From Micromonospora inositola (GTDB lineage Bacteria; Actinomycetota; Actinomycetes; Mycobacteriales; Micromonosporaceae), in the NCBI RefSeq assembly GCF_900090285.1, contig NZ_LT607754.1:806001-870000 (forward strand): 64,000 nucleotides of DNA. The letters are read 5' to 3'. Below, in pieces: positions 11,510 to 18,794 of this stretch (the stretch's first letter is position 1; each line of letters starts with the position of its first letter). The position numbers and the translations under genes are program-made. The notes beneath the pieces are model-generated. The model did not search any database. It was not told where the DNA came from and was given only the letters and a program-made list of their open reading frames with translations.

Positions 11510-13336
11510 TCAGGGACGGTCGTCGAGGAGCTGGTCGAGGCTGACGGCGGTGCTGATCAGCGAGAGGTGGCTGAACGCCTGCGGGAAGTTGCCGATCTGC
11601 TCGCCGGTGGGCGCGATCTCCTCCGCGTAGAGCCCGAGGTCACTGCTGTATGTGAGCATCTTCTCGAAGGTCAGTCGGGCTTCGTCGAGCCGACCGGAGT
11701 ACGCGAGGGCCTGGACGTACCAGAAGGTGCACATGCTGAAGGTGCCCTCGTTGCCGCGCAGGCCGTCGGGTGAGGCGGCCGGCTCGTACCGGTAGACGAG
11801 GCTGTCGGAGACGAGTTCGGCGTCCATGGCCCGCAGGGTCGACTGCCACATCGGGTCGGTCGGCGACACGAATCCAACGCCGGGCATGGTGAGCAGCGCC
11901 GCGTCCAGGACGTCGGTCGCGTAGTGCTGCACGAAGGCACCGCGTCCGGGGTGGAAGCCGCGCGCCATGATCTGTTCGTAGATGTCGTTGCGGGCGTTCG
12001 CCCAGCGGGTGGTGTCGGCCGGCAGGCCACGGCGGTTCGCGAGGCGGATGGCGCGGTCGAGTGCCACCCAGCACATCAGTCGCCCGAAGGTGAAGTCCTG
12101 CCGGCCGGAGCGGGTCTCCCAGATCCCGTCCTCGGGTTGGTCCCAGTGGTCACAGAGCCAGTCCACGAGGTGCCGCACGTTCAGCCACCCCTGGTGCGAG
12201 CCCTGAAACCCGTGCCTGTCGGCGAGGTGCAGCGCGCTCATCGCCTCACCGTGGATGTCGAGTTGCAGTTGGCCGGCCGCGCCGTTGCCCACGCGCACCG
12301 GGCTCGATCCGCGGTATCCCTCGAAGTGGTCGAGCACCTCCTCGGTGAGATCGGGTGAGCCGTCGACCCGGTACATGATCTGGAGCGGCACGCCGGTCGC
12401 CACCGAGTCGCGGATGCGATCGTTGAGCCAGCCCAGGTAGCGGCCGGCCTCGTCCGTGAAGCCCAGGCCGAGCAGCGCGTGCACCGAGAGGGAGGCGTCC
12501 CGGACCCAGGTGTAGCGGTAGTCCCAGTTGCGCTCGCCGCCGATCTGCTCCGGCAGCCCGGCGGTGGGGGCGGCGATCAGCGCGCCGGTCGGCGCGTACG
12601 TCATCAGCTTGAGCGTCATCGCGGAACGCTCGACCATCTCCCGCCACCGGCCGGTGTAGCAGGAGCGGCCGAGCCAGCGCCGCCAGAAGTCGCGGGTCTG
12701 GTCGAGCATCTCCCACACCTCACCCGAACTGACCACGCGTGGCGGGCCAGGCGACGCTGTTTCCAGCACGACGCCACCGATTTCGCCCTCTCGGAGCGTG
12801 CCGATCGCAGACACGCCCTCGCTGGTACGCCGGATATACGTGTCGACCCCGACCTCGACCTCGCGGACGGGGTTCAGGGTCAGGCTGAGGCTGGGGGTGC
12901 GGTAGATGACGCCGTCCGGATACTCGTCGAGTTCGTGCGGATCGCGCCCGTAGTTGAACCGTGGTTGGCACTCGATGCGGAACCGCATCGTGCCGCGAAC
13001 GATCCGGATCACGCGGACCAGGCGGTGCCGGTCGGTGGCGCGATCTCCCGCGACAGGCATGAAATCCACGAGTTCAGCCACGCCGTCCGCGCTGAGAAAG
13101 CGGGTGATCAGGATGGGCGTTCCAGGCACGTACAGCTGTTTGCTCCGGTAGTCGACCCCAACGGGCGAAACCTGGAAGTACCCACCCTCGTGCCGATCGA
13201 GCAGGCCACCGAAGATGCTCGGCGAGTCGAAGCGGGGGGCGCAGAACCAGTCCAACGTCCCGTCTCTGCTCACCAGCGCCGCAGTCTGCAGGTCACCGAT
13301 CAAGCCGTGGCCCTCCACGGCCGGGTACGAGTCCAT
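11510..13336 (-). CDS. GH15 family glycosidase (trehalase/glucoamylase-like)
   Basis: A 608-residue protein. The N-terminal beta-sandwich (YPAVEGHGLIGDLQTAALV, DGTLDWFCAPRFDSPSIF) and the (alpha/alpha)6 catalytic domain (GGERNWDYRYTWVRDASLS, WLCDHWDQPEDGIWE, and LYAEEIAPTGEQIGNFPQAF with the likely catalytic acid Glu) are the standard GH15 layout. Actinobacterial relatives hydrolyse trehalose or alpha-glucans. There is no signal peptide, so it acts in the cytoplasm. ATG 13336 is preceded by GGGAG at five bases; a GTG eight codons upstream is possible. The gene abuts the tRNA-Ala element on its upstream side. Confidence 0.9.
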   Translation of the reverse strand: MDSYPAVEGHGLIGDLQTAALVSRDGTLDWFCAPRFDSPSIFGGLLDRHEGGYFQVSPVGVDYRSKQLYVPGTPILITRFLSADGVAELVDFMPVAGDRATDRHRLVRVIRIVRGTMRFRIECQPRFNYGRDPHELDEYPDGVIYRTPSLSLTLNPVREVEVGVDTYIRRTSEGVSAIGTLREGEIGGVVLETASPGPPRVVSSGEVWEMLDQTRDFWRRWLGRSCYTGRWREMVERSAMTLKLMTYAPTGALIAAPTAGLPEQIGGERNWDYRYTWVRDASLSVHALLGLGFTDEAGRYLGWLNDRIRDSVATGVPLQIMYRVDGSPDLTEEVLDHFEGYRGSSPVRVGNGAAGQLQLDIHGEAMSALHLADRHGFQGSHQGWLNVRHLVDWLCDHWDQPEDGIWETRSGRQDFTFGRLMCWVALDRAIRLANRRGLPADTTRWANARNDIYEQIMARGFHPGRGAFVQHYATDVLDAALLTMPGVGFVSPTDPMWQSTLRAMDAELVSDSLVYRYEPAASPDGLRGNEGTFSMCTFWYVQALAYSGRLDEARLTFEKMLTYSSDLGLYAEEIAPTGEQIGNFPQAFSHLSLISTAVSLDQLLDDRP

Positions 13337-13343
13337 CAGATCT

Positions 13344-13387
13344 CCCGCCCTCGCCGACACCGACTGCGGCGACTACCCGAGGGCGGG
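13344..13387. promoter_or_regulatory. inverted repeat in GH15 upstream region
   Basis: CCCGCCCTCG (13344-13353) and CGAGGGCGGG (13378-13387) form a perfect 10-bp inverted repeat separated by 24 bases, starting 8 bases upstream of the GH15 start codon. It may be a leader hairpin overlapping the ribosome-binding region or an operator. Confidence 0.4.
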
Positions 13388-13439
13388 CGGGACACACCTC
13401 GGCCCGGCGGTCCGACCTGGTACGGGGTGTCCCGGCCGG

Positions 13440-13469
13440 TGCGCCGCCTTGGCTACTCGCGTGGCTACT
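13440..13469. repeat. direct repeat copy 1 at element edge
   Basis: A 30-base sequence, identical to 13827-13856, containing GGCTACTCGCGTGGCTACT. Similarity continues leftward for about 45 further bases at lower identity (both have GGTACGG and GGTGTCC spaced alike). This copy lies outside the tRNA fragment at 13705, that is, outside the element boundary. Confidence 0.85.
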
Positions 13470-13667
13470 CAGCCCGCGAAGGTGCAACCGCGTACAAGAG
13501 TTCTCATGTCTTCCTTTCAAGTCGTGGACAGTCCGGAGCCAGCCCACGCCAACGCGCCCTCGGAAGCAGCCGTCGTCAAGGAATCACGGCCCCGGTCGAG
13601 TTCGAACCTATGACCGTTTTGTCCTCTACACAGCAAATCGCGGAGGTTTCCTACCCGAAGACGACGA

Positions 13668-13697
13668 AGGGCGCCCGTCATGTCTGACGAACGCCCT
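13668..13697. terminator. hairpin next to the tRNA-Ala fragment
   Basis: A two-part stem: AGGGCG (13668-13673) with CGCCCT (13692-13697), and an inner CGTCA/TGACG stem around a TGTC loop. It lies just downstream, in tRNA orientation, of the truncated tRNA copy. It is probably the original terminator of tRNA-Ala before the element inserted. Confidence 0.55.
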
Positions 13698-13704
13698 GAT
13701 CGTG

Positions 13705-13751
13705 AAGGGTGGAGCCGAGGGGACTCGAACCCCTGACCCCCACACTGCCAG
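13705..13751 (-). repeat. attachment-site copy: tRNA-Ala 3' fragment (left end of element)
   Basis: Forty-seven bases identical to 18628-18674. They contain the 3' portion of tRNA-Ala (acceptor 3' strand, T arm with GGTTCGAGTCCC, variable loop and anticodon-arm 3' side). After base 13751 the sequence diverges from tRNA (GAGCGGGCG instead of TGTGGTGCG), so this copy cannot form a tRNA. It is the expected footprint of integration by a tyrosine recombinase into a tRNA gene. Confidence 0.9.
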
Positions 13752-14008
13752 GAGCGGGCGAGGCCGGGTCAAGGTCACCGGACACTGCTCAACGGGTCCG
13801 CCAAGGTACGGCGGTGTCCGTCAGGATGCGCCGCCTTGGCTACTCGCGTGGCTACTTGACCCGCATCTCACCCTGCGTGCCGGTCCGTAGTGATCCTGAT
13901 CGGGGGCATCCTGGTCGGGCCAGGAGCGGTTGGGGGTCACCGGTGGGTGCCTTTCCTCCGGGTATGCGACTTCCAACCCGCCGGTGAGCCGCGGCTGTGC
14001 GGGCGACG
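13752..14008. other. non-coding left arm of the element
   Basis: No convincing gene. It contains the second copy of the 30-base repeat (13827-13856). A short frame in the opposite direction encodes VATRVAKAAHPDGHRRTLAD and ends soon after; it could be the relic of a recombinase 3' end, which normally lies next to the attachment site. Confidence 0.5.
13827..13856. repeat. direct repeat copy 2 inside element
   Basis: Thirty bases identical to 13440-13469. The two copies lie on either side of the truncated tRNA, 387 bases apart. This suggests two successive insertions at this tRNA gene, each leaving a similar recombinase-end remnant. Confidence 0.85.
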
Positions 14009-15235
14009 ATGAGCGGTATGGGGCATCGGGAAGGCGGTGTACAGGGTCAGGACCTGTTGCAACGTCGCGAGGACGTGCGGCAGGCCAACTTCCTGGAACT
14101 GTTCGTCGACCTGGTGTTGGTGTTCGCCCTGGCCGGGGTGGTCAGCCGGGTCGCGCGGGACATCGTCAGCGAAGACGTTGTCGTCCGATGGCGGTCGATG
14201 GCCTTCCTGCTCGTGCTGTCGCTGCCGCTGATGTGGTTGTGGATCACGACCGCGCACATCACCAGCTGGTTCGACCCCCGCCGCCGCAAGATCCAGTGGA
14301 TCGTACTGGCCAGTGCCTTCGGGCTGCTGGTCATGGCCTCATCGCTTCCGTACGCGTTCATCGGCCGCGGGTGGGCGTTCGTGCTGCCGTATGTGATCCT
14401 GCAGTGCGGCCGGCCGCTCATCCTGATGCCCGCGCTACGCGGACACCCCCTGCGGCAGCTTTATCGCCGGTCGGTGCTGTGGTTCGCGGCCTCGGCGGTG
14501 ATCTGGTTCGCCGGCGCGGCCGTCAGCGGCAGCGCCCGGGCCGCCCTGTGGGGGGCCGCCGTAATCGTTGACTTCGTCGCCGCGCAGCTGCGCTGGCCGG
14601 TACCGGGGATGGCCGGGCCGCCGGTCAGTGCGTGGGCCACGGACAGCCGCCACCACCTGCCCGAGCGCTACCAGCAGTTCCTGCTGATCGCCCTCGGGGA
14701 AACCGTGCTCGCCGTCGGCACCACGCTGACCAACCAGCCGGTCACCACGGCGACCGCCGCGGGGCTGGTGCTGGCGTTCCTGTCGACGGTGCTGCTGTGG
14801 CGCATCTACTTCTACCGCTCCGGCCAGGTCCTCGCCGAAGCCGTCGCCGCGGCGGGGAACCGGGACGCCGCCGGCCTCGCCATCGGCACTGCCCACGTCG
14901 TCATGGTGCTGGGCATCGTCGCCACCGCCGTCGGCTTCGAGATCGTACTGAAACACCCAGACGGCTCGCCGGAGCCGGCGTGGCTCGTCGCGATCCTCGG
15001 CGGTCCGGCACTGTTCCTCTACGGCCGCATCCGTCTGGAACGCGTCGTGTTCGACCGGCTTTCCATCCGCCGTGTCGCCGCCATCGCCGCCCTGGCGATC
15101 GCCGCCGTCCCCCTGAATTTCGCCCCGCCGCTGGCCGCTGCGGTCGTGGCCGCGCTCGTCCTGCTCGCCGTCGCCCTCGCCGACGCCCGCCACGCCGCCG
15201 GCCGTCCCCCCGAGGCCCCCTCCCCGGCGCACTAG
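14009..15235 (+). CDS. low-temperature-requirement A (LtrA) family membrane protein
   Basis: About 408 residues with roughly ten to twelve transmembrane helices. The opening RREDVRQANFLELFVDLVLVFALAGVV, the loop ITSWFDPRRRKIQW, and the segment RYQQFLLIALGETVLAVGTTL are typical of the LtrA family, named from Listeria growth at low temperature; its biochemical role is not established. The start is uncertain: GTG 13997, ATG 14009 and ATG 14018 are in frame and none has a strong Shine-Dalgarno sequence. It is the first intact cargo gene of the tRNA-Ala element and has ordinary high-GC codon use. Confidence 0.85.
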   Translation: MSGMGHREGGVQGQDLLQRREDVRQANFLELFVDLVLVFALAGVVSRVARDIVSEDVVVRWRSMAFLLVLSLPLMWLWITTAHITSWFDPRRRKIQWIVLASAFGLLVMASSLPYAFIGRGWAFVLPYVILQCGRPLILMPALRGHPLRQLYRRSVLWFAASAVIWFAGAAVSGSARAALWGAAVIVDFVAAQLRWPVPGMAGPPVSAWATDSRHHLPERYQQFLLIALGETVLAVGTTLTNQPVTTATAAGLVLAFLSTVLLWRIYFYRSGQVLAEAVAAAGNRDAAGLAIGTAHVVMVLGIVATAVGFEIVLKHPDGSPEPAWLVAILGGPALFLYGRIRLERVVFDRLSIRRVAAIAALAIAAVPLNFAPPLAAAVVAALVLLAVALADARHAAGRPPEAPSPAH

Positions 15236-15348
15236 GTCCTGTCTGACCCCGGCGTCATCAGTTCACCAACTACAGGTAGAGGTCGGCGGCAGCCCCTGCT
15301 CTGGCAGTCCGTCACCGAGCGTGAGCTGGGCAAAGGTCATCTTCGTTG

Positions 15349-15453
15349 TCAGGGCGTGTCCCCGATCCGCGTCACAGTCACCCGGTAGCTAGCACCGTCG
15401 GATGACAGGCGGCCCAGCGCATACCCCACACCTGCGACCGCCTCCGCCACCAG
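15349..15453 (-). pseudogene. possible remnant of a small conserved protein
   Basis: A 34-codon stretch (LVAEAVAGVGYALGRLSSDG, then ASYRVTVTRIGDTP and a stop) has good GC-rich third positions and reads like the C-terminus of a small soluble protein. Nothing upstream in frame looks coding. It overlaps no confident gene and may be debris of the element. Confidence 0.25.
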
Positions 15454-15506
15454 CTGCCGATCAGCAGGCTGGTCGACGACCGCACCTGGCCCGTACGCAT
15501 CCCGGC

Positions 15507-15650
15507 CCGCTGGTAGCCGCTCTGCGCCAGCACCAGCAACGCCAGCGGCAGGAGCTCGCAGCTCTCGGCGACGCCTGGGCAGACCCTCGGCTGGTCTTCG
15601 CGTCGACGACGGGCACCCCCGTAGATCACCGCAACGACACCCGCATTCAA
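15507..15650 (+). pseudogene. tyrosine recombinase (phage-type integrase) remnant
   Basis: A 48-codon stretch reads PLVAALRQHQQRQRQELAAL followed by GDAWADPRLVFASTTGTPVD and HRNDTRIQ. This matches the segment of actinobacterial integrases between the catalytic Arg region and the HxxR box (a typical form is PLVAALRxHxxxQ...GLVFxTxxGTPxDPRN). The catalytic Arg, HxxR and Tyr motifs are missing: upstream sequence is frameshifted and downstream sequence is unrelated. It is therefore a fragment of the recombinase that once moved this element, now unable to excise it. Confidence 0.75.
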
Positions 15651-16215
15651 GGCGCTCCTTGTGGCGGCCAATGTGCGATGCGAGGAGGTGGTCACCGCAG
15701 ACGGAGCGGTCAGTTTGGAAGAGCGCACTTAACCGACCGCGTTGCCCGAAACGCCTGCGGCCCGTGGCCGTACCGGTTGCGTCTCGGGCCCGCTCGTGAC
15801 CGCTACGCTCCACGGTTACTGGCCGATGGATGGCCCGAGAGACTTCCGGGCGCCACAGGCCTCGACCTGCTCCGCAACCAGGTCCTGCATGGCCCCAAAT
15901 GCCTCAATCCCCATGGAAGAAAGTGGCTTAAAGGGGCCGAACGGATATTAGGTGCGGGCCTACCTTCAGGATTCGTTACCTAAACGTGATATTCGCCGTC
16001 CGTGATCAACCTACCTCGGTTATGGCGATCAATACGGACCTATCGCTCGAGCTTCCGAAATTCCGTGACGCTGCGCAGCGGGCGTTTGCTTTGAGCTGGC
16101 AACGGTCGGGCACCCACACACCCTCCAACCCGATACGATCCGCGCCACCGTTGCCGATCGTCCGACTTCTATGGGCGGTCAGCGACACCCCTCTACGGCA
16201 AGGAGCAGTCAAAGA
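15651..16215. other. gene-poor interval of the element
   Basis: Sequence of visibly lower and more variable GC than the surroundings. Open frames here lack coding character. The last 20 bases hold the Shine-Dalgarno sequence of the protease gene. No hairpin or promoter was identified with confidence. Confidence 0.5.
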
Positions 16216-17790
16216 ATGGTCCGAGCGATGTATCGAAAGCGAACCTTGTTCGCCCACGCAAAGAAGCGCTGCGCGGTCCTCGCGACGATGGCCCTCTCAA
16301 TCGCGCTTGGCGCAGTCGTGAACGCCGCGCCGAGCTACGCATTTTCTCCTTCCGCCCCTATGGACCGCGAAAGCGTCCAGGAATCGCTTCACTACCTGAC
16401 GTCCACTTACGGCATTGATGAAGCTGAGGGCATGCGGCGTCTCCAGCTGCAAAGCGATGGCCAGGAGCTCGACCGCGTATTGAGAAAGGCGGAGCCCCAG
16501 ACCTACGGTGGAATGCTCCTTGACCAGGCCGCTGGAGGCGTGCTGGTTCTTTCGTTCACGCAGCCGGGGGCCGCAAGTTCATATGTAGCGTCGATGCCTG
16601 ATCGTCAACACGTCCGGGTCCGGCAGGTAAGGCACCCTCTCTCAGAACTCGACGCCATCAGCGCGCGGCTTTCCAAAAAGGTCCACGCCGGACCTAACGC
16701 CATCTTCCTGCCCGCCGTCGATGAGGAAGGAAACCAAGTTGTACTGGGGGAGCGCACCTGGGTACGCGACGCGAAGCGGGCAGGCACCTTCGCCCCCAGG
16801 CCATCGGATGTCGGTACTCAGCCGACAACCAGCTCGGCTGAGCGAGCGGCAGCCGTCGATGAGGAAGTAGCCATTGCGAACGCGGCTGCCGCGGCGGAAG
16901 GCGCGTCAGTCGCTCGGCGGGCCATGAAGCTCCCGCACCCCCTGTACACCCCTTATGTTGACTGGGGTTACTGCCACCCCCTTTACTGTAAAACTACCTA
17001 TGGTCCTATGCGGGGTGGCTTAAGGCTGAACATCAAGCGCGACAACGGCACTTGGGGTGGATGCACGAGCGGCTTCAACGTCCGCAGCCACGGCGGCGCC
17101 TACAACAACTGGGCTTGGGTGCTGACAGCAGGTCACTGTGTCGTCGGAAAGGCGAACAGCACCTACATCCACCACAACGGCTACAACATCCTCACACGGA
17201 ATCGAAATCTGGAATTCAACACGTTCCCTTACGACTACGCGATTCTGCCGTACATCAACGGCACCTACTCGCAGAGTTGGCTCGACAACTTCACTGGGAA
17301 GAATCGAATCCTGAAGTATTGCCGTAACGGCGGCCAGGATAGCGACGCGGACACACCGTGTGGCACCCAGGCCACCTCGGCCAACCAGTACATTACCGCT
17401 ACTCACACGCTATCCGAGATTAAATCCGGCTGGGTAGTGTGTGCTAGTGGGAGTGGATCCGATACCGCAAACTACCCTGAGTCCTACGGCAGTGGCGCCG
17501 GCGCCGGTTACCTGGTTGGCACCCGTTGCGGGAAGGTAATCGGAAAGGACTGGGCCATCAACACTGATATCTGCGCCCGAGCGGGCGACAGCGGTGGCCC
17601 ACTGTTCAGCCAGATTGACAGCACCGGCTACGGCATCTTGGAGGGAAGCCTGCAAACCCGCACTGGCGCGTGCTATGCAGGAGAGCAGAACAACTACATC
17701 CCGTTGAGCACCATCTTCAGCGATGTAAACTCGCCCTGGATTTCCAACGGTGGCTCGACCTTCGGTATCATCACTTCCTCCACGGGCTGA
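16216..17790 (+). CDS. secreted trypsin-like (S1) serine protease with long propeptide
   Basis: A 524-residue precursor. A signal peptide (basic start MVRAMYRKRTLFAHAKKR, hydrophobic LATMALSIALGAVV, cleavage after APSYA) is followed by a propeptide to about residue 235, then a chymotrypsin-fold domain. The catalytic triad is visible: His307 in LTAGHC, Asp340 in YDYAILPY, Ser459 in GDSGGPL. Several cysteines in the mature part suggest disulfides. AAGGAG lies 10 bases before ATG 16216. Codon use is less GC-biased than in the core genes (AAC/AAT, ACT, TAT common), consistent with acquisition with the tRNA-Ala element. Substrate unknown. Confidence 0.9.
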   Translation: MVRAMYRKRTLFAHAKKRCAVLATMALSIALGAVVNAAPSYAFSPSAPMDRESVQESLHYLTSTYGIDEAEGMRRLQLQSDGQELDRVLRKAEPQTYGGMLLDQAAGGVLVLSFTQPGAASSYVASMPDRQHVRVRQVRHPLSELDAISARLSKKVHAGPNAIFLPAVDEEGNQVVLGERTWVRDAKRAGTFAPRPSDVGTQPTTSSAERAAAVDEEVAIANAAAAAEGASVARRAMKLPHPLYTPYVDWGYCHPLYCKTTYGPMRGGLRLNIKRDNGTWGGCTSGFNVRSHGGAYNNWAWVLTAGHCVVGKANSTYIHHNGYNILTRNRNLEFNTFPYDYAILPYINGTYSQSWLDNFTGKNRILKYCRNGGQDSDADTPCGTQATSANQYITATHTLSEIKSGWVVCASGSGSDTANYPESYGSGAGAGYLVGTRCGKVIGKDWAINTDICARAGDSGGPLFSQIDSTGYGILEGSLQTRTGACYAGEQNNYIPLSTIFSDVNSPWISNGGSTFGIITSSTG

Positions 17791-17879
17791 CGCAACGCGG
17801 TGGGGAGGCCGGCCGGGCCTCCTCACCGCACCTGTGGGTTCGCGATCACCACACCCTGCCTCAAGATGGTGGCTCTGAA

Positions 17880-18323
17880 ATGCGTGTATTTCGGTACGTA
17901 ATGGCGGCACTAGGGATCATCGCGCTGACGTGGCTGACGGGCTTGACCCCTGGCGACACCTTCGGCGTCACTGTAGACCATTGCTACGTGACGTACGATC
18001 GACAGGAAAACCAGGAAAGTCGGTGCGTCGGCTACTGGACCCGAGCGGGTCAAACGGTCACCTCGGGGCCAATCTCCGGGGTTGACGTCGGCACGGATTG
18101 GCAGGCGCTAACTACTGATCCCAACTCAGAATATGAGTGGGAAGTCCAGATTCCGAGCAAAGCAAAGCACCCGTTCGCGTTGGCTGATACGTCGCGCGCC
18201 TACGCACTTACTGGTCCTGCGTTGCTAGTCGTGGCTGTAGGCGCAGCGTGCGGCGCTGCGGCAGCGGCCCTGTTGCTTCTGCAACGTCTTCGAAGAGGAA
18301 CTGCTGCGCCGGCCGCTAATTGA
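17880..18323 (+). CDS. small membrane protein with extracytoplasmic domain
   Basis: A 147-residue protein: one N-terminal hydrophobic segment (residues 3-24), an extracytoplasmic stretch of about 80 residues with two cysteines (DHCYVTYDRQENQESRCVGYW), and a second transmembrane helix near residues 107-132 followed by a basic C-terminus (LQRLRRGTAAPAAN). No family recognised. It starts 89 bases after the protease stop on the same strand, so the two may be co-expressed and could work together on the cell surface, for example as a protease-associated factor; that is speculation. A strong terminator follows at 18396. Confidence 0.7.
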   Translation: MRVFRYVMAALGIIALTWLTGLTPGDTFGVTVDHCYVTYDRQENQESRCVGYWTRAGQTVTSGPISGVDVGTDWQALTTDPNSEYEWEVQIPSKAKHPFALADTSRAYALTGPALLVVAVGAACGAAAAALLLLQRLRRGTAAPAAN

Positions 18324-18395
18324 GCGCTTGCAGATGAGGACACAGGATCCGACCGGCGGGGCCGCTTCCCCCGTGGCGGCCTCTCTACGAGGACG

Positions 18396-18434
18396 CCCCC
18401 GCTCGCCCTGCGCACGAACCAGGGCGAGCGGGGG
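18396..18434 (+). terminator. strong intrinsic terminator of the element's cargo genes
   Basis: A perfect 15-bp stem (CCCCCGCTCGCCCTG at 18396-18410 and CAGGGCGAGCGGGGG at 18420-18434) with a 9-base loop, followed by TCGTTT. It lies 72 bases after the last cargo gene. Confidence 0.85.
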
Positions 18435-18572
18435 TCGTTTCCACGGCCTGGGGGCGGGGCCCCGGCAAAGTCGTGAGTGTGTCCGACTTGAGGGGGTTGG
18501 TGTAGAGAGGACAGGCCGGGCCGTGATCTGGCATGGATCTGGCACGTCGACCGCTTGGAGGGTGAAACGACG

Positions 18573-18613
18573 GACGCCCTGGCCTTCACCGTCTCGGTGT
18601 TGACCAGGGCGTC
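18573..18613. terminator. hairpin downstream of tRNA-Ala
   Basis: GACGCCCTGG (18573-18582) pairs with CCAGGGCGTC (18604-18613), followed by TTTT on the plus strand. It lies 20 bases beyond the 3' end of the minus-strand tRNA-Ala and resembles the hairpin beside the truncated tRNA copy at 13668. Confidence 0.65.
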
Positions 18614-18627
18614 TTTTCGCCTATTTC

Positions 18628-18674
18628 AAGGGTGGAGCCGAGGGGACTCGAACCCCTGACCCCCACACTGCCAG
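18628..18674 (-). repeat. attachment-site copy within intact tRNA-Ala (right end of element)
   Basis: Forty-seven bases identical to 13705-13751. This copy is part of the complete tRNA, so the element lies between 13752 and 18627 and replaced the tRNA 3' end with its own identical sequence on integration. Confidence 0.9.
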
Positions 18675-18705
18675 TGTGGTGCGCTACCAGCTGCGCCACG
18701 GCCCC
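18633..18705 (-). tRNA. tRNA-Ala(GGC)
   Basis: A 73-base gene on the minus strand. The acceptor stem GGGGCCG/CGGCTCC has one G-U pair and discriminator A73. The anticodon arm is CCACA-CTGGCAG-TGTGG, with anticodon GGC. The T arm contains GGTTCGAGTCCC. The D arm has AGCTGGTAGC. CCA is not encoded (ACCC follows). The gene serves as the integration site for the adjacent element. Confidence 0.97.
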
Positions 18706-18794
18706 TTGCTGTCGTCCCGGTCGCCCGGGCACGCAGAGAACTATACACACGCCGGTCGGCATGGTCATCTCGCGGGGGGTCCCCTGCCCAGGGC

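Follow-up and report, generated by a model that had tools for sequence, protein, structure and literature searches.

Probable remains of two stacked integrative elements fused at tRNA-Ala(GGC) of Micromonospora inositola

A 47-bp repeat and the genes it encloses

We analysed a 64,000-nt stretch of the Micromonospora inositola genome (here called the window; all coordinates refer to it), in which an intact tRNA-Ala(GGC) gene and an orphan copy of its 3′ end enclose a 4.9-kb segment. An earlier note, made from the sequence alone, had described this segment as one decayed integrative element. The tRNA gene (18631-18705, minus strand) was identified by ARAGORN and by Rfam (RF00005, 65.7 bits), and was the only Rfam feature above its gathering score between 11000 and 20000. 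Its attachment site (18628-18674, minus strand) and the orphan site (13705-13751, minus strand) are identical at 47/47 positions, with a spacing of 4,923, so that the duplication of the tRNA tail claimed in the note is exact. The repeat consists of the 3′ 44 nt of the tRNA plus three flanking bases. When a 78-nt tRNA query was run against the complete 6.7-Mb genome, the full 47 bases were found at two places only, the remaining four matches showing 77–83% identity.

Three cargo genes lie on the plus strand between the two sites. The first is an intact frame for an LtrA-family membrane protein (14009-15235; PF06772, E = 7e-74), starting at ATG 14009 or possibly at GTG 13997. The second, also intact, encodes a secreted serine protease of the S1 family (16228-17790; PF00089, E = 3e-6) with conserved catalytic H/D/S residues. 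The third encodes a small membrane protein (17880-18323) with a conserved DHCYVTYDR domain between two predicted helices and no Pfam match above the cut-off. These assignments agree with those of the note, and the view that the three genes are cargo is supported. The difference in codon usage noted earlier was also seen: GC content falls from 0.709 in LtrA to 0.601 in the protease and 0.599 in the membrane protein gene, and third-position GC from 0.90 to 0.71 and 0.61, the latter two values being computed on the longer ORFs 16171-17790 and 17670-18323.

Of the recombination machinery, only traces are left. The integrase fragment noted earlier is real though tiny: Pfam gave no match for it, but about 45 codons (15521-15657, plus strand) are 78% identical at the DNA level to an integrase relic on contig C190 of a related genome, G014 (genomes are cited by our survey numbers). 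A second trace, at 18505, is formed by the last codons of another integrase. Among nine window frames scanned with Pfam, we found no excisionase domain and no replication or transfer domain, smaller frames lying outside the scan; this is in keeping with the earlier statement that no replication or transfer gene is left. Integration into the 3′ end of tRNA-Ala followed by loss of the recombinase is supported.

Two ends of different class at one tRNA

The sequences adjoining the two sites belong to different classes of element ends. The left end (13752-13873, plus strand), which we term A-type, contains the arm-type repeat GGCTACT..GGCTACT at 13833-13855. In local alignments it scored 171 against the outer left end of a locus in G067 and 152 against the left end in G016, compared to 41 for the next best end and a maximum of 44 in 820 shuffles. 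The right end (18505-18627, plus strand), termed B-type, begins with the last integrase codons, carries the arm repeat GATCTGGCAyG at 18525-18546 and includes a strong hairpin, T2 (18573-18613; −40.1 kcal/mol, z = −7.3). It scored 159 against the inner element of G067, with a null maximum of 34.

Among the matches listed, G067 is the closest relative at this locus, with 98% identity across 173 bp of tRNA and flank. Its flank carries the same GH15 gene as that of the window (92% identical), and beside this flank two elements are stacked at the same tRNA. The outer element (6.6 kb) shares the window's left end, 13752-13873; at its other end are a 67-aa integrase C-terminus only, the GGCTACT arm repeat and a hairpin resembling the one outside the window's orphan site. 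The inner element (20 kb) has an intact integrase next to the tRNA together with HTH_17, RepSA, FtsK/SpoIIIE and NUDIX proteins and is an actinomycete integrative and conjugative element (AICE). Its end matches window 18505-18627, starting at the last integrase codons, and 18505-18787 is 92% identical to the inner element, tRNA and flank of G067.

The integrase traces can be assigned to the same two classes. Downstream of the G014 relic, 31 residues show 77% identity to the C-terminus of the outer integrase of G067; because of this, we type the window relic as A. Of the B integrase, no more than the last codons survive. We opened eight loci with an A-type end or an integrase remnant on the hairpin or arm side (the window, the G067 outer element, C190 of G014, C3 of G009, G010, G061, G076 and G032), and none contained an intact integrase, although no search was aimed at an intact A-type integrase. 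Class assignment is loose for the integrase of G009 C3, which is 46% identical to the G067 C-terminus.

The search covered 81 Micromonospora genomes; three of them (G014, G047 and G087) were set aside, and the tRNA stretch was usable in the other 78. Clustering of the 60 nt beside the tRNA showed that a relative of the window's left-flank hairpin (T1, 13661-13704) abuts an uninterrupted tRNA-Ala in 13 of the 78, with 1.4 to 17 kb covered per genome. In G020, G009, G022 and G010, the window flank from 13661 or 13663 continues directly into an intact tRNA-Ala, followed by yqgE, and 13661/13663-13751 is 93–98% identical to the sequence ending in that tRNA. The uninterrupted tRNA predicted by the note was found beside the same hairpin but, in stretches of 1.4 to 18 kb, not beside GH15.

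Within the stretch covered, 10 of the 78 genomes have an orphan copy of the tRNA tail with at most 4 mismatches in 44. Among the matches listed, further-out copies on the tRNA contig were seen in G067 (two), G051 and G084 (three), bringing the total to at least 13/78; orphans on other contigs (G001, G015, G047, G081, G103) were left out of the count. The three copies in G084 span 113 kb (C1, 1599222-1712745), a very large stack. The 3′ half of tRNA-Ala(GGC) in Micromonospora is the attachment site for at least four end classes, A to D, where C and D denote classes of ends only. Like the window, G016 has a mismatched pair (A-left/B-right), and so does G085 (D-left/B-right). Seven further segments bounded by orphan copies read as matched, based on motif counts and on flanks judged by eye; in G078, B-type arms are present at both ends, together with an intact integrase.

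A proposed history and its alternatives

Within the window, there is no attachment site between the A-type left end and the B-type right end. Given this and the different arm-type repeats at the two ends, the 4.9-kb segment is best read as the fused remains of two stacked elements, A-type on the left and a B-type AICE on the right, joined by deletion, and we consider this history probable. The GC contrast between LtrA and the block of protease and membrane protein genes was counted in its favor. Of the description as one decayed element, the decayed tRNA-Ala integrant stands; the single element does not, as the ends match two classes that are stacked in G067, and a probable end of a third class (described below) lies between them.

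Each integration would regenerate the 3′ half of the tRNA and supply a new hairpin after it, so that the tRNA-side junction stays usable. The next element could then enter at this junction, pushing older elements outwards. In M. inositola, an A-type element (with the left end, LtrA and the integrase relic) may have entered first, followed by a B-type AICE. Later deletions would have taken out the right end of the A-type element together with the inner attachment site and, from the B-type element, its left end, backbone and integrase, so that the A left end came to adjoin the B right end. LtrA, the protease and the membrane protein would have stayed behind as resident genes; the latter two may have been brought by either element.

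Several observations weigh against this history. With no inner attachment site or junction left, the deletion itself is an inference. Within stretches of 1.4 to 18 kb, GH15 was seen next to the site in two cases, the window and G067 with its double occupancy, and no genome showed an empty GH15–tRNA–yqgE site. The B-type homology is short (about 123 bp plus the tRNA): against other B-type right ends, the window's right end scored 60, 57, 56, 51, 45 and 36, near the null maximum of 34, and against the outer flank in G016 it scored 50. Finally, G016 has the same pair of ends as the segment with an intact B integrase and other cargo, a sign, perhaps, that a hybrid element can exist as a unit.

This last point leads to the alternative that a single integrative element, always hybrid-ended (A-type left, B-type right), lost its backbone and integrase. 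Two observations speak for it: G016 combines these ends with an intact B integrase of 378 aa and has no inner attachment site, and the two repeat copies of the window agree at all 47 positions. However, G078 has B-type arms at both ends with an intact integrase, in G067 A and B occur as two distinct elements stacked on each other, and the D-left/B-right mismatch of G085 is as expected from stacking and deletion. Moreover, the integrase relic in the left part of the segment is A-type and not B-type. Taken together, these data make a single hybrid element unlikely.

Another idea is that the segment is a cis-mobilizable element (CIME), excisable as a unit once a cognate integrase enters the cell, both attachment copies being intact. 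It has two identical 47-bp copies and has lost integration and transfer genes, which fits the definition of a CIME in PMC5704250, and relatives carry intact B integrases at tRNA-Ala. The arm repeats, however, differ in class, and arm-type sites are described in PMC3364876 as essential for efficient pSAM2 recombination. In addition, the closest match to the B integrase in the M. inositola genome is only 52% identical and lies at tRNA-Gly(CCC). We regard mobilization of the segment as a unit as rather improbable. A plain tandem duplication of the tRNA without recombination, which the note had named as a possible refutation, requires just a repeat of a tRNA, but can be dismissed with near certainty, since the copy spans only the 3′ 44 nt plus three bases, is flanked by sequence recurring at element ends elsewhere, and has relatives of its left-flank hairpin directly at the 13 uninterrupted tRNAs.

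Compared with known systems, the fusion of stacked elements that we favor combines familiar features. In the pACPL and pSAM2 elements, as presented in PMC3364876, the attachment site is a tRNA 3′ end (an identity segment of 43 nt in pACPL) with arm-type repeats beside it, needed in pSAM2 for efficient recombination. The segment has tRNA 3′-end repeats of this sort, and its right end matches the G067 element with integrase, HTH_17, RepSA, FtsK and NUDIX genes. Unlike these AICEs, the segment has no int, xis, rep or transfer gene (the replication and FtsK-type transfer genes are both present in the G067 inner element), only the two integrase traces, and ends of different classes. Nor does it resemble an integrative and mobilizable element, as neither an integrase of its own nor mobilization functions were found in the frames scanned.

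Decay to CIMEs and accretion are in print for Streptococcus elements (PMC5704250), and stacked islands at ssrA for Dehalococcoides (PMC3146451). As in these cases, the segment is bounded by attachment sites and lacks recombinase and transfer genes, and later elements stack on the side of the tRNA gene. It differs from them in its mismatched arm types and lost inner site. Two AICEs in one tRNA gene, sometimes with integrases of different subfamilies, are given in PMC3218068 for Frankia (Fean5518/Fean5534) and S. avermitilis (Sav3708/Sav3728). Those pairs are described there as two tandem elements, whereas in the window the two seem to be fused by deletion. Stacking and relics of this kind are already known; the details here provide a new and well-resolved example. 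The segment illustrates the repeated overwriting of a tRNA site, and its mismatched ends point to a fusion that would pass for one element in a plain search for repeats.

Hairpins, LtrA cargo and older traces

With each wave of integration, the tRNA apparently also acquires a substitute hairpin on its 3′ side. In 99% of the 78 genomes, the first 60 nt on this side have a folding energy of −22 kcal/mol or below, compared to 50% of 468 control segments drawn from these contigs (medians −31.1 and −21.9), although the contrast is weak at −18 kcal/mol (100% versus 76%). Of 19 flanks on the outer side of orphan copies, 79% also come to −22 or below (median −28.5). Single-linkage clustering at the chosen threshold nevertheless splits the 78 tRNA flanks into 15 sequence groups. 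Integrating elements thus seem to come with terminators of their own and appear to replace that of the tRNA. Hairpins T1 and T2 of the window have neither a clear T-run nor a call in a terminator consensus scan, and for this reason their role in termination is put forward as an inference.

T1 (minus strand; −28.5 kcal/mol, z = −5.2), a probable terminator in the outer flank of the orphan site, is of the type found at A-type right ends: it scored 65–77 against five of these (null maximum 30). Integrase C-terminal remnants lie beside T1-like hairpins in G076, G061 and the G067 outer element, and in G010 an integrase-like fragment (by eye) and an arm repeat do. Farther out, 13402-13477 (plus strand) is a probable remnant of an older A-type left end, with an arm-type repeat at 13446-13468 and no attachment site; 13426-13477 is an 83% direct repeat of 13813-13864, and the genome contains two exact instances of the arm 23-mer. 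G067 has just 83 bp between flanks in place of window 13402-13660. Because of this second left-end copy and the likeness of T1 to A-type right ends, 13402-13704 is read as the probable remnant of an older element. Alternatively, T1 could be a native terminator captured by A-type elements.

Turning to the cargo, homology to G067 stops at 13873, and the match of LtrA to G014 (93.5% DNA identity) runs from 13874, directly after the left end, to the stop codon. The gene shows dN/dS of 0.24–0.49 versus four relatives. The LtrA relative of G009 and G022 sits in a chromosomal setting common to the two, which makes capture of the gene probable. The closest relative, in G014 (L039, 3868-6044), adjoins a fragment of a DDE_Tnp_1-associated transposase, with which the gene may have travelled.

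LtrA genes are greatly expanded in M. inositola, with 38 loci (43 Pfam matches, four small pieces and one fragment being merged or dropped), and LtrA alone was hence ruled out as a marker of mobility. With the window's own gene excluded, 3, 5 and 6 of 37 loci lie within 2, 5 and 10 kb 3′ of a tRNA, compared to 0.46, 1.08 and 2.04 expected (reached in 299, 218 and 529 of 20,000 circular shifts). Within 1.5, 3, 5 and 9 kb of an integrase there are 3, 4, 6 and 9 of 37, versus 0.92, 1.48, 2.14 and 3.46 (319, 353, 131 and 37 of 4,000 shifts). An integrase match is present within 1 kb on the 3′ side of 14 of the genome's 55 tRNA matches. Besides the window, 4 of 31 LtrA regions contain a tRNA and 3 of 31 a tRNA with an orphan copy, including one (L264) in which LtrA lies outside the repeat pair; the control regions (tRNA in 1/9, orphan copy in 0/9) are too few to compare. 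At L257 (G000:C1:3223000-3242500), tRNA-Gly(TCC) has two orphan 3′ copies with one LtrA gene per segment, and at L258 (G000:C1:1815000-1834800), tRNA-Gly(CCC) has one orphan copy with two LtrA matches in between.

In 5 of the 77 other genomes, an LtrA homologue is found in the first 5 kb by tRNA-Ala (that of G076 crosses the 5-kb line); none lies wholly inside the 5–18 kb range. At the density of the M. inositola genome, about 2 would be expected in 375 kb. All five genomes are among the 13 with a T1-like flank (Fisher P = 6.5e-5), but the homologues represent three unlike lineages and are not independent by descent, the carriers including near-copies (G020/G092, 88% identical; G009/G048, 94%). 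These data are suggestive of LtrA as a recurrent cargo at tRNA sites, without proving it. Our literature searches found nothing on LtrA as island cargo, and the association offers a testable hint on a large and poorly understood gene family. One could go further and suppose that A-type ends mark a family of integrase-dead cargo cassettes, mostly at tRNA-Ala, with conserved ends and hairpins, a mode of spread in trans or through accretion and a preference for LtrA genes; we hold this to be a long shot. Cargo at A-type-ended loci comprises LtrA (window), another LtrA (G009), ArsP/DUF1775 (G067), MsrA/MsrB, an epoxide hydrolase and a thioredoxin-like protein (G014), and ArsR, MIP and LMWPc (G076).

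The protease, judging from its alignment, is a full-length member of a secreted, streptogrisin-like S1 family of actinobacteria. A search returned 224 proteins at E ≤ 1e-3, itself included, with conserved TAGHC, YDYA and GDSGGP stretches, which we take to be the catalytic H/D/S motifs; against PDB there was no sequence match at E = 0.001. The membrane protein has six database homologues and belongs to a small family (22 matches in 21 of 300 family genomes, own included). Its AlphaFold model, helix-strands-helix, is uncertain (mean pLDDT 69, pTM 0.38). None of the three cargo proteins had a match in NCBIfam or PADLOC at E = 0.01. A fixed operon of protease and membrane protein was rejected, as a membrane-protein homologue lies downstream at just 3 of 37 named protease loci, one in M. 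saelicesensis (E = 2e-45) and two weak ones in Hamadaea (E = 4e-5 and 7e-5). Conversely, the protease accompanies the membrane protein at 2 of 21 loci (the window and G095; 21 of the 22 matches, four with about 1.5 kb of flank). Two further frames, a 402-aa ORF at 12479-13687 and an ORF at 13709-13987, had no Pfam match and were rejected as genes.

The third end class mentioned above is represented by a 128-bp sequence (15709-15836, plus strand), probably the end of a tRNA-Gly-type integrative element (G-type end). It has 45 matches, the window's included, across 21 of 61 genus genomes, and a sharp edge at TCAGTTTGGAAG, in the tRNA-Gly anticodon-loop region. Judged by eye, 6 of 27 aligned copies run on directly from the 3′ half of a tRNA-Gly, and the other 21 do not. 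These junctions favor an element end, and interpretation as an RNA or MITE was dropped. One copy in the M. inositola genome is the outermost attachment repeat of the tRNA-Gly(TCC) stack, and the sequence was also noted at L054, L219, L222, L225, L234 and L243. Within the probable older remnant, 13598-13612 is T-loop-like (GTTCGAACC), with weak, sub-threshold tmRNA matches in Rfam.

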